This document shows positions 2,917 through 45,345 of a stretch of DNA of 45,479 nt, one piece after another. The translations under genes were made by a program, and so were the position numbers. The notes under the pieces were generated by a model that ran no database searches, was not told the DNA's origin, and was given only the letters and a program-made list of their open reading frames with translations. The stretch's first letter is position 1, and each line of letters begins with the position of its first letter. The stretch is taken from the NCBI GenBank assembly GCA_001513105.1, contig LFSH01000030.1:1-45479 (forward strand). The letters are read 5' to 3'. This DNA is from Clostridiales bacterium DTU070 (GTDB taxonomy: Bacteria; Bacillota; Clostridia; DSM-8532).

Positions 2917-3276
2917 GTTTCAATTTCTCATAGGTAGGCCCAAAACAAGCGAAGATTATGGAAGTGGTGCAGTTTCTGTGTAGTTTCAATTCCTTATAGG
3001 TAGGCTCAAAACGTCAATTGCAACAGCCAAATCCTCGCCAAGAGTTCTGAGTTTCAATTCCTTATAGGTAGGCTCAAAACGTTTTAAAAATATTTCTTTT
3101 ATTTCAGTATACGAGTTTCAATTCCTTATAGGTAGGCTCAAAACTATTAAAGTAGTATTAAAAAACTTATTATGAATTATGTTTCAATTCCTTATAGGTA
3201 GGCTCAAAACCTAAAAAATCACTCGAGGAAATAGAAAAAGAAATGCGTTTCAATTCCTTATAGGTAGGCTCAAAAC
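2917..3276 (-). CRISPR. CRISPR array, 6 repeats and 5 spacers, type I-B-like repeat
   Basis: Repeats of 30 bases start at 2917, 2983, 3051, 3115, 3181 and 3247. Spacers are 36, 38, 34, 36 and 36 bases. The last five repeats are identical; the first (2917-2946) has four changes. On the minus strand the repeat begins GTTTTGAGCC and ends ATTGAAAC, the 8-base crRNA handle typical of type I-B systems of Clostridia, so transcription should run right to left. The decayed repeat is then at the trailer end, as expected. No cas gene is present in the window, so interference would depend on cas genes elsewhere. Confidence 0.95.
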
Positions 3277-17754: not shown

Positions 17755-18046
17755 CGAAAAATGGCGATGACAAGGAGTAGTACATGCTTTCCCGAAGCAG
17801 AGAGAGAAGATGGCCGGTGCAAATCTTCGTGACGGAAGTATGGAAGTAGCCTTTGAGCTGTGAACCGAAAGGGCATGTTCCCAAGTAGGCTTCAACGGAA
17901 ATTCCCACCGTTAAAAGGGAAGCAATATCGGATGATTTGCAGAATTATCCCGTATTGGCAGAGTGCAGATACACAGTATCTGAATTTAGGTGGTACCGCG
18001 GATTAATCAGTTCGCCCTAAGCAAACGCTTACGGCGAACTTTTTAT
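17755..18046 (+). ncRNA. T-box riboswitch, valine specifier GUA
   Basis: A full T-box leader. Stem I starts near GGCGATGACAAGGAGTAG and includes the AGAGAGA bulge segment (17803-17809 area). The specifier is read as GTA at 17846-17848 in the context GAA-GTA-GCCTTTGAG. The antiterminator T-box bulge AGGTGGTACCGCGG is at 17988-18001; its TGGT pairs with the ACCA 3' end of tRNA-Val. The terminator pairs AGTTCGCC (18009-18016) with GGCGAACT (18033-18040) followed by a T-run. Uncharged tRNA-Val should turn on the gene behind it. Exact 5' end is inferred. Confidence 0.93.
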
Positions 18047-21127: not shown

Positions 21128-21156
21128 CCATACCGGATATACCGATAAAGTAACTT

Positions 21157-21240
21157 TCCCTACGTTGGCATTACCCAAATCAGGTTCAAAGGGTCGAAGC
21201 TGTATCGCTTCCTCTCAGCCTGCACACAAGCTCCCCTTGT
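21157..21240 (-). promoter_or_regulatory. TPP riboswitch (thi-box)
   Basis: On the minus strand the aptamer reads ACAAGGGGAGCTTGTG, then GCTGAGAGG, a P3 stem-loop, GACCCTTTGAACCTGAT, GGGTAATGCC and the closing AACGTAGGGA. All conserved TPP aptamer blocks are in order. It controls thiM-thiE-HAD. Confidence 0.97.
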
Positions 21241-21256
21241 TATTCAATTGCAGAAA

Positions 21257-25146: not shown

Positions 25147-25174
25147 TTGCCGGTAATCCGGGTACACATATAAT
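25147..25174 (+). promoter_or_regulatory. Promoter of the rsgA leader
   Basis: TTGCCG (25147-25152), 16 bases, perfect TATAAT (25169-25174). Transcription from about 25181 would give a 5' leader of about 355 bases before rsgA. Confidence 0.6.
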
Positions 25175-25219
25175 AGAAATTGAAGTGTATTATGAATACG
25201 GTTCGAAAGGAGTGGTTTT

Positions 25220-25255
25220 ATGTTAGCAGTAAAGACAGGGGTGATTTCAGTATAG
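25220..25255 (+). CDS. Leader peptide uORF upstream of rsgA
   Basis: ATG at 25220 with AAGGAG 7 bases upstream encodes 11 residues, MLAVKTGVISV, then TAG. The binding site is as good as those of real genes nearby, and two terminator hairpins follow before rsgA. Its likely role is to let a translating or stalled ribosome choose between RNA structures, not to make a functional peptide. Confidence 0.55.
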   Translation: MLAVKTGVISV

Positions 25256-25398
25256 CTTAATATCGGCACAGGAACACGTGAAAACCTGTTCCACAGGTTT
25301 TATTTGTGTTGCCTATGCAGCTTCTTTCGGTAACCGGGCGGTATTGGCGAACCGCTGGTATTCAGCGGCGTGTCTTTAAATAGAGTATGGCTGATTAT

Positions 25399-25424
25399 AA
25401 ACACGCTCTGGCAGCGTGTTTTTT
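25399..25424 (+). terminator. Leader terminator 1 upstream of rsgA
   Basis: AACACGCT-CTGGC-AGCGTGTT, a perfect 8-bp stem followed directly by further T residues. It lies within the rsgA leader, after the uORF. Confidence 0.8.
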
Positions 25425-25469
25425 GCTGCGTTAATTTGCGATAACGTTAAATATACATAAGCAGCAGTA

Positions 25470-25497
25470 CCGCAGGAGGTTTCTGCGGTTTTTTTTT
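25470..25497 (+). terminator. Leader terminator 2 upstream of rsgA
   Basis: CCGCAG-7-CTGCGG with a perfect 6-bp stem followed by about nine T. It ends only 40 bases before the rsgA start codon, so it must be overcome for expression. Confidence 0.8.
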
Positions 25498-25536
25498 ATG
25501 CAAAATTATAAATTATGTAAAGGACGGATTTGAACG

Positions 25537-26604
25537 ATGGATATAAAAGAATATGGATGGGATGAGTATTTTGAAAATGAGTGGAGAAGTAACCCCACCG
25601 ACGGTATGTTCCCCGGTAGAATAACTGCAGATTACGGTCAGATGTTCCGGGTGGTTTCTGCTCACGGCGAACAGCTGGCAAAAAGACCCGCATGCAGGCA
25701 TGGCAACTCCATGCAACTGGCGGTTGGAGACTGGGTGGCTCTGAAAAGGCTTTCTGAAGACGGGCAGTTTCAGATAATGCTTGCCCTGAAAAGGAAAACG
25801 AAATTCTCAAGGTTTGCAGCAGGAGGTGAAGTAAAGGAACAGATTGTTGCAGCAAATGTTGATACCGTTTTCCTTATGCAGTCACTAAACAGGGATTTTA
25901 ATATGAGAAGGCTTGAGAGATACCTGATCGCTGCCTGGGAAAGCGGCGCTCAGCCTGTTGTAGTACTGAGCAAGGCCGATTGCTGTGAAAATGCAGACGA
26001 AAAGATTGCAGTTGTATATAATACCGCACCGGGCGTTGATGTTCACGCAATCAGTTGTGTAACAGGGGAAGGAATCGGAGACATAAAAAAGTACTTTACA
26101 ACAGGGAAAACGGTGGCGTTGCTTGGTTCATCCGGTGTCGGAAAATCCACATTGGTTAACACTCTTGCAGGCAGGGAGCTTCTGAAAACCGGGGAAATCC
26201 GGGAGAATGACAGCAGGGGAAGGCATACCACAACCCACAGGGAACTCCTGCTGCTGCCCGAAGGAGGCCTGATCCTGGATACCCCGGGAATGCGGGAACT
26301 GTCCATATGGGACGCAGATACCGGTATGGAGATGATGTTTTCCGACGTGGAGGAGCTTGCCAGGCTGTGCCGTTTCAGCGACTGCAGGCACCAGAGCGAA
26401 CCCGGATGCGCTGTAAAAGAAGCTCTTCGGACCGGCGAACTTGACATGGAAAGATGGAACAGCTGGTTGAAACTGCAAAAGGAACAGAAACACCTAAAGG
26501 GCAGAAAGGAAGCAAAACTGTTGCTTCAGCAAAAGAAGCAGGGAAAATTTGCGGCAAAGTCCCGGAAAGAGTTTTATGAAGGAGGAGCAAGACATGAATA
26601 TTAA
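25537..26604 (+). CDS. rsgA: RsgA, ribosome small-subunit-dependent GTPase
   Basis: A 355-residue circularly permuted GTPase that checks late 30S subunit assembly. An OB-fold N-terminal domain (to about 110) is followed by G4 VVLSKAD, then G1 GSSGVGKSTLVN, G2 RHTTTHREL and G3 DTPGMREL; the C-terminal zinc domain shows C-x5-C-x1-H-x5-C (CRFSDCRHQSEPGC). The tail is Lys-rich. At 355 residues it is longer than the usual ~295-residue clostridial RsgA, so it may be a second, inducible copy. Start ATG 25537 lies beyond the leader terminators; its stop overlaps the acetyltransferase by 11 bases. Confidence 0.92.
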   Translation: MDIKEYGWDEYFENEWRSNPTDGMFPGRITADYGQMFRVVSAHGEQLAKRPACRHGNSMQLAVGDWVALKRLSEDGQFQIMLALKRKTKFSRFAAGGEVKEQIVAANVDTVFLMQSLNRDFNMRRLERYLIAAWESGAQPVVVLSKADCCENADEKIAVVYNTAPGVDVHAISCVTGEGIGDIKKYFTTGKTVALLGSSGVGKSTLVNTLAGRELLKTGEIRENDSRGRHTTTHRELLLLPEGGLILDTPGMRELSIWDADTGMEMMFSDVEELARLCRFSDCRHQSEPGCAVKEALRTGELDMERWNSWLKLQKEQKHLKGRKEAKLLLQQKKQGKFAAKSRKEFYEGGARHEY

Positions 26605-27565
26605 AATCAGAAGTGAAAAAATATCGGATTACAGTAGTATTGCCATAGTCAATTACGAGGCATTCATGGGACTGAATACCTGTAAGCAATATGTTTCAGA
26701 ACCTGTAATGGTTGATTTGTTAAGGAACAATTTGTTGTTCGATCCTGAATTGTCCCTGGTTGCGGAGGTTGAAGGCAGGGTTGCCGGTCACGCGCTGTTT
26801 TCTCCGTTCAGATTTATTGTATCAGGCAATGTACAGCCGGGGGTAATGCTTGCTCCATTGGCTGTAAAGCCTGAATTTCAGAATAAGGGGATAGGCAGCG
26901 CGCTTGTAGAAGAAGGCCACAGGATAGCCAAGGAAAAAGGATTCACGTTATCACTGCTTTGCGGACATGATAATTATTATCCAAGATTCGGTTACAAAAC
27001 CCGGATGTTTTCGCTTACCGGTATAAAGGCATATGTTTGTTTTAAAGATTTTGACGGCGAAGGTATCTCTGAAAGGGCTGTGCGTGAATGCGATATTGAC
27101 TGGATAACAGAAGCATGGAATAAGGGGCATTCATCCGATTCGCTTGCAATTTTCCCGGGTAAAAACATAAGTGACTGGAGCAGCTACAGCAAAAGGAGCC
27201 GGTGTTCTGTTATAACAAAAGATGGTAAGGTTTTGGGTTACGTGAGAGTTGCAGATTCCGATATACCTGATGTAAGGGAATTACTGGCCGATAGTGAGAA
27301 TATCCCGGATATCCTGGCCTACGTTGCATGGAAAAAATACGGCCGGGCTGAAGGGGAGATTAAAGTCGCAGGAACGGCTGAAAAGTTCAGCAGCATTGTT
27401 TCAGAGAACCTTACCGTTGCCGATGACATAGCAGCCTACAGCGCATATATGATCAAAGTTCTGGACGATAACAGCCCGGTTGTGGAATACTGCGACGGGG
27501 TGGAAAAAGGTATAATAAAACCGGGCGTTATTTCGTTCCACCCTGTATTTGATTTGGACGACTAA
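26594..27565 (+). CDS. GNAT-family N-acetyltransferase
   Basis: A 323-residue protein. The N-terminal ~160 residues are a GNAT domain with MLAPLAVKPEFQNKGIGSALVEEG (motif A, acetyl-CoA pyrophosphate loop QNKGIGSA), preceded by VAEVEGRVAGHALFS and followed by LLCGHDNYYPRFGYKT. The C-terminal half may be a second, degenerate GNAT fold, as in Eis-like and mycothiol-synthase-like enzymes. ATG 26594 follows GGAGGAG, which lies inside the end of rsgA. Coupling with rsgA under the attenuator leader suggests a ribosome- or drug-directed acetylation; the substrate is unknown. Confidence 0.82.
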   Translation: MNIKIRSEKISDYSSIAIVNYEAFMGLNTCKQYVSEPVMVDLLRNNLLFDPELSLVAEVEGRVAGHALFSPFRFIVSGNVQPGVMLAPLAVKPEFQNKGIGSALVEEGHRIAKEKGFTLSLLCGHDNYYPRFGYKTRMFSLTGIKAYVCFKDFDGEGISERAVRECDIDWITEAWNKGHSSDSLAIFPGKNISDWSSYSKRSRCSVITKDGKVLGYVRVADSDIPDVRELLADSENIPDILAYVAWKKYGRAEGEIKVAGTAEKFSSIVSENLTVADDIAAYSAYMIKVLDDNSPVVEYCDGVEKGIIKPGVISFHPVFDLDD

Positions 27566-45100: not shown

Positions 45101-45345
45101 AATAAAAAACTCCCACCCCAGTAAGGGGTGAGAGCAGCTCTCACGGTTCCACCCAAATTACAGCTGTACTGAACAGCTGTCACTCGTTGCGATTATAACG
45201 GAATCACCGGTAATACTTACTGCTGTTTCGGTATACTGCTCGAAGGGGGTTTTCGGTTTTCCATGTATGGAAGTGCTCCCAGCCGCCGACACTTCCTCTC
45301 TGGTATACTGGGCAAAACCTACTCGTCCTTGTCATCGCATTTGTC
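45101..45345 (-). ncRNA. T-box riboswitch, threonine specifier
   Basis: On the minus strand: stem I begins GCGATGACAAGGACGAGTAG, includes the AGAGAGG segment, and has GAA-ACA-GCAG, giving specifier ACA (complement of 45224-45226). The antiterminator bulge reads TTTGGGTGGAACCGTGAG (about 45140-45157); its TGGA pairs with the TCCA end of tRNA-Thr. The terminator stem (45110-45133) is followed by a run of T. It would raise ThrRS synthesis when tRNA-Thr is uncharged. Confidence 0.92.

Follow-up and report, generated by a model that had tools for sequence, protein, structure and literature searches.

A conserved uORF leader ahead of an accessory rsgA and other clostridial genes: a probable transcription attenuator

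Introduction

In Bacillus subtilis, vmlR is controlled by an anti-antiterminator/antiterminator mechanism that has been shown by experiment; a ribosome held at the start of an upstream open reading frame (uORF) leads to read-through (PMC9226507). The cplR leader of Clostridioides difficile, a clostridial case, combines a uORF attenuator with a premature terminator (PMC10201436). In Listeria, a uORF attenuator controls hflXr (rli80), which encodes a second, spare version of a housekeeping ribosome GTPase (PMC6310831). For Tn916, tetracycline and other inhibitors of translation are reported to lift attenuation (PMC9154091).

Here, we analyze a leader upstream of rsgA in Clostridiales bacterium DTU070. 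The window, i.e. the whole stretch of DNA that was analyzed, comprises 45,479 nucleotides (contig LFSH01000030.1). A sequence-only reading of this DNA had proposed that the leader controls a ribosome-assembly GTPase and a coupled acetyltransferase in the way known from antibiotic-responsive genes. Like the vmlR leader, it has a uORF with Shine-Dalgarno (SD) sequence, a predicted anti-antiterminator and antiterminator, and an intrinsic terminator. However, vmlR has a uORF of three codons (MIN), an ABC-F target and another sequence (PMC9226507), whereas the window leader has an 11-codon uORF with an SD-like motif inside it, 9 nt ahead of the stop codon, and an accessory RsgA as target. The cplR leader differs in its MRI uORF, in a terminator that also hides the gene's own SD, and in its ABC-F target (PMC10201436). 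Among known cases of a uORF attenuator with a spare ribosome GTPase as target, hflXr comes closest, although HflX splits 70S ribosomes, its uORF carries an RLR motif and its leader sequence is different (PMC6310831). A conserved arrest motif of the RLR type, as in erm and hflXr, was not found in the uORF peptide MLAVKTGVISV or its relatives. Within the open-access literature, we found no link between RsgA and a uORF attenuator, no report on window-type leaders or an inducible RsgA, and no precedent for an accessory RsgA as attenuator target.

Results

Anatomy of the leader

The promoter, the uORF with its SD, the hairpins and the two terminators that the sequence-only reading had placed before rsgA are all present, as follows.

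25147..25174, + strand: SigA-type promoter TTGCCG-16-TATAAT, matching the consensus at 10 of 12 positions
25204..25212, + strand: uORF SD CGAAAGGAG, which with CGGUU (25199-25203) is the 5' strand of helix H1
25220..25255, + strand: uORF of 11 codons, MLAVKTGVISV and stop; start, length (9-14) and GGUG-N9-stop spacing are kept in most leaders
25238..25246, + strand: SD-like motif GGGGUGAUU inside the uORF, with exactly 9 nt from GGUG to the stop codon
25265..25318, + strand: P1 hairpin domain, from covariation and fold, with GGCACAGG (25265-25272) paired to CCUAUGC (25312-25318) and an inner hairpin at 25282-25300
25321..25336, + strand: switch strand CUUCUUUCG-GU-AACCG, partner of the uORF SD (H1) or part of the antiterminator (H2)
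25361..25373, + strand: inner antiterminator strand, including GCGUGU (25368-25373), which pairs with 25401-25412
25401..25425, + strand: intrinsic terminator 1 (T1), ACACGC...GCGUGU and U tract
25469..25497, + strand: intrinsic terminator 2 (T2), ACCGCAG...CUGCGGU and U tract
25537..26604, + strand: accessory RsgA, 355 aa, carrying the GTPase motifs and the Cys/His residues for Zn binding (PF03193, 3.6e-53)
26594..27565, + strand: GNAT acetyltransferase gene, sharing 11 nt with the 3' end of rsgA

The predicted fold of the window leader RNA is more stable than those of 100 out of 100 shuffled sequences (z -3.4). Each element by itself is common in a 3-kb region. Terminator-like sites are in fourfold excess there (10 against 2.5 expected); promoter-like sites number 4 against 4.7 expected, and the window promoter alone is thus within chance. 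We accept it as real because homologous leaders carry promoters at the same place: in 40 of 45 leaders, the 110 nt preceding the uORF SD contain a match of at least 9/12 (13.0 expected). An Rfam search of the leader, at gathering and at permissive thresholds, gave no credible match.

Conservation

Since a DNA search with the leader inside the genus matched the window alone, homologous leaders were located by protein anchors. The DNA upstream of accessory rsgA genes in other genomes, from many families, keeps the leader anatomy. In particular, homologous leaders retain both the uORF and the terminators, whose lack in such loci the sequence-only reading had regarded as speaking against it. It had also proposed a covariance search; model R2, a second model from which the window sequence was left out, scores the window leader at 77.5 bits (E 7e-16, rough like all our model E-values owing to short calibration). 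Model R1, built from 26 leaders, matches 64 places in 45 of the 391 genomes of the class and, partly by construction, 35 of the 61 accessory rsgA loci that have enough upstream DNA. Neither model found a convincing score at the housekeeping rsgA loci scored (best 15 bits). At one locus (L040), tandem matches (629-829 and 862-1063) precede a single accessory rsgA, the first of them weak (22.9 bits).

P1 and T1 covary in alignments A1 and A3. RNAalifold recovered T1 alone from the whole alignment, probably because insertions break the remaining helices. Of the 12 leaders that belong to the sequence type of the window, 5 have CGUGU in the equivalent spacer, where 0.35 would be expected.

Among the correctly framed uORFs of the 45 leaders scored, the distance from GGUG to the stop codon is 9 nt almost without exception. 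As L007 has the conserved GAGGUG in another frame than its uORF, the motif seems to be kept as RNA and not merely as peptide. The sequence GAGGUGAU can base-pair with the 16S rRNA 3' end, and a ribosome at the uORF stop codon could therefore be held through this pairing.

Competing helices

The strand 3' of P1, typically GUAACCUUUCG or CUUCUUUCGAGCAACC, has two possible pairing sites. In H1, it pairs with the uORF SD and its 5' flank and sequesters the ribosome-binding site of the uORF; in H2, it pairs with the T1 loop and the start of the T1 right arm. Because one strand (UAACC-CUUUCG) is common to both helices in the 45 leaders, they exclude each other.

Covariation was tested by comparing the duplex energy of each leader's own pair with that of pairs swapped between leaders. 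For H1, own pairs reach -14.07 kcal/mol and swapped pairs -11.26 kcal/mol (p 2e-5; within sequence groups p 5e-5); for H2, the values are -6.70 and -5.43 kcal/mol (p 2e-5; within sequence groups p 0.0055). The leaders are related by descent, which means that these tests are not wholly independent of ancestry; with 10 leaders less than 55% identical, p is 0.0005 for H1 and 0.004 for H2. Most control regions show nothing, the small p-values among them being 0.02 (promoter with switch strand) and 0.001 (upstream 12-mer, offset -25); we therefore take small p-values in these tests with caution. Compensatory pairs are seen in L163 (UAACCAU/AUGGUUA), L139 (GUAAC/GUUAC) and L170 (UUAAUCA/UGAUUA). When folds are cut before the T1 right arm, 41 of 45 leaders show the AACC core paired to the loop of T1 or to its 5' half.

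In the window, H1 joins 25199-25212 and 25321-25336 with a predicted -20.5 kcal/mol. The AACC part of H2 is partly caught in a local inserted hairpin, and for this reason the window antiterminator leans mainly on the pairing of 25361-25373 with 25401-25412. GCGUGU (25368-25373) is complementary to ACACGC (25401-25406); this pairing with the left arm of T1, already pointed out in the sequence-only reading, makes up the inner part of the antiterminator. Covariation supports the antiterminator, to which an anti-antiterminator over the uORF SD can now be added.

The accessory RsgA

The window protein matches RsgA by profile (PF03193, 180 bits; TIGR00157, 169 bits) and by structure (6h4d and 5no2). 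With both the GTPase domain and the Zn-binding C-terminal region present, it is a full RsgA. The ribosome-assembly GTPase of the earlier proposal is thus indeed an RsgA, but a spare paralogue rather than the housekeeping copy, which lies on another contig and is 30% identical. That the window gene is the housekeeping orthologue can be excluded; it is a second copy, of a type found in 10 of 33 genomes when the order is considered, and in 76 of 391 for the class. Resistance and stress genes show a similarly patchy distribution. As to the acetyltransferase, a 59% identical homologue of the window GNAT sits directly behind its own leader copy at L148.

Accessory rsgA genes lacking the window-type leader frequently have other uORF leaders, as judged by eye and from single folds. 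A terminator-free uORF leader lies upstream at L056, L060, L062, L069, L074, L078 and L101, in which the uORF ends in a GGGAGGU-like sequence, followed by CCUCC and the rsgA SD GGAGG, an arrangement known from translation attenuation. Control of accessory rsgA by a uORF thus seems to have arisen more than once. At other loci (L005, L006, L007, L034, L037, L038, L133, L134), the DNA that separates the leader from rsgA or another gene encodes a conserved basic protein of about 50 residues (NPRTRVQEN..KKKRRQ..KK).

Other genes behind the leader

Model matches across the class genomes show that the leader also precedes genes other than rsgA. Their names are profile matches, some of them assigned through similarity to a scanned member.

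L139: TetM-like ribosomal protection protein (623 bits; the curated cut-off is 775)
L199: fragment of a Lsa-family ABC-F (568 bits, below its cut-off)
L158, L162, L164: MutS2-like ATPases
L143, L150, L155, L159: RtcB, release-factor-H-coupled type
L144, L147, L151: MsbA-like ABC exporters
L137, L140, L148, L180, L202: GNAT and APH-like enzymes
L153, L177: methyltransferases
L170, L172, L146, L156, L163, L191: CD3324-family (Mor-like) small proteins, recurrent targets

MoxR-type AAA ATPases are also among the targets. With the CD3324 family, PfkB and HAD, they have no obvious link to the ribosome. The presence of TetM-like, Lsa ABC-F, RtcB, MutS2 and exporter genes behind the same leader supports the link to antibiotic-response genes that the sequence-only reading had drawn. 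A target bias toward the 30S decoding centre may exist, although an ABC-F is also among the targets. PADLOC gave nothing beyond a weak mad8 match.

The genome of the window has three leader copies, on C40 (the window), C42 and C36. The latter two are:

G000:C42:6431-6620, - strand: L133, ahead of a gene for a small basic protein and, after it, GntR/ABC genes
G000:C36:104665-104927, + strand: L191, before a CD3324-family gene

A genome of the same genus keeps a leader (L135) before an apparently decayed rsgA and has no intact accessory rsgA.

Relation to tet(M)

The tet(M)/tet(O) leader follows the same order of SD, short uORF, UAAACUG, hairpin, strand complementary to the uORF, and terminator. 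Its uORF has AAGGU about 9 nt before the stop codon, resembling the window-type GGUG-N9-stop, and the terminator tail, AUUUUUAUGCCCUUUU, is the same as in the window-type leader. It differs in its seven-codon uORF (MRQGILK) and in its complementary strand, which lies over the body of the uORF and not over the SD. In L173 (530-699) and L175, this seven-codon uORF precedes the leader peptide annotated for tet(M) and is complementary to a downstream strand, on a plan as in the window leader. The models match tet(M) over the full length and at the right place, but weakly (R1, 13.1 bits, E 0.022; R2, 19.4 bits, E 0.011; rough E-values). They matched neither tet(O), which stayed below threshold, nor a Paenibacillus tetB(P)-like locus. 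Homology of the two leaders is plausible; the sequence similarity falls short of proof.

Discussion

Comparison between genomes establishes, at the level of sequence, a conserved anatomy, competing helices and common target genes. Judged by this, the leader is a real and widely conserved RNA switch in clostridia; it is absent from Rfam and forms a new family of an already known kind of regulator. Three features of an attenuator of the vmlR kind are found here: a uORF with SD between promoter and terminator, an intrinsic terminator before the main ORF, and, according to the covariation tests, an antiterminator and anti-antiterminator that exclude each other.

The leader very likely acts as a uORF-dependent transcription attenuator that reads ribosome occupancy of the uORF start region; the experimentally established vmlR mechanism follows the same logic (PMC9226507). 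By default, the 11-codon uORF would be translated fast and the ribosomes would depart, leaving the SD and its 5' flank (25199-25212) free to bind the switch strand (25321-25336). With the SD paired, T1 would stop transcription, and T2 would serve as backup. A translation inhibitor or damaged ribosomes would keep a ribosome on the SD and the first codons. This would leave both the switch strand and, further downstream, GCGUGU unpaired, so that they could pair with the T1 left arm and loop, and RNA polymerase would read on into the accessory rsgA and the overlapping acetyltransferase gene. We infer this direction of the switch (SD free, termination; SD covered, read-through) from the anatomy and the vmlR precedent. 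Induction by translation inhibitors is probable, mainly because the ribosome is what many of the targets act on, repair or protect, while others export or modify drugs. The extra RsgA would have a protective role on 30S subunits.

The combination of short uORF, antiterminator and terminator is also the classic plan of amino-acid or charged-tRNA attenuators, in which ribosomes stall at specific uORF codons when an amino acid is short, and valine is frequent near the end of the uORF. However, there is no run of a single codon, the peptide varies widely between leaders, GAGGUG is conserved even out of frame (L007), and the downstream genes are not biosynthetic, which makes such a mechanism very improbable. 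Even less probable is a metabolite riboswitch in the P1 domain with an incidental uORF. P1 is structured, with a conserved AAUA flank, and several terminators are present, but its apex is highly variable in sequence and length, an Rfam match is absent, and the targets are metabolically unrelated. Moreover, the switch helix has the uORF SD as one of its arms, and the uORF spacing is nearly invariant.

As every element is common on its own, the leader might be a plain, unregulated double terminator with read-through; the conservation of competing helices and of the fixed uORF-stop spacing across families gives this still less credit than the riboswitch. We give the least to autoregulation. RsgA binds 16S rRNA, and an RsgA-like ribosome-biogenesis protein, or the small basic protein that is encoded between leader and gene at several loci, might bind the leader. 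Yet unrelated proteins lie behind the same leader, and the genome of the same genus that lacks an intact accessory rsgA has retained it.

If the uORF-dependent attenuator is accepted, the leader family flags genes that clostridia turn on, most likely, under ribosome impairment, and the accessory RsgA and several poorly known leader-borne genes become candidate inducible ribosome-protection factors. The mobile tet(M) leader may, as the similarities suggest, derive from the chromosomal family. A broader reading, which we put forward tentatively and with some doubt, is that a single attenuator family of ancient origin, with the leader of Tn916 tet(M) as a distant member, governs a dispersed clostridial ribosome-damage regulon. 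It would sense impaired initiation or early elongation in general and switch on RsgA, MutS2, RtcB, Tet-like and ABC-F proteins, the accessory RsgA representing a new inducible class of 30S decoding-centre protection. The roles assigned in this reading are spare assembly for RsgA, rescue for MutS2, rRNA repair for RtcB, and protection for the Tet-like and ABC-F proteins.

Apart from the leader, the window contains a CRISPR repeat array (CRISPR-DR2, 2983-3276), as well as two T-box leaders and one TPP riboswitch (17758-18022, + strand; 45121-45344, - strand; 21139-21247, - strand).
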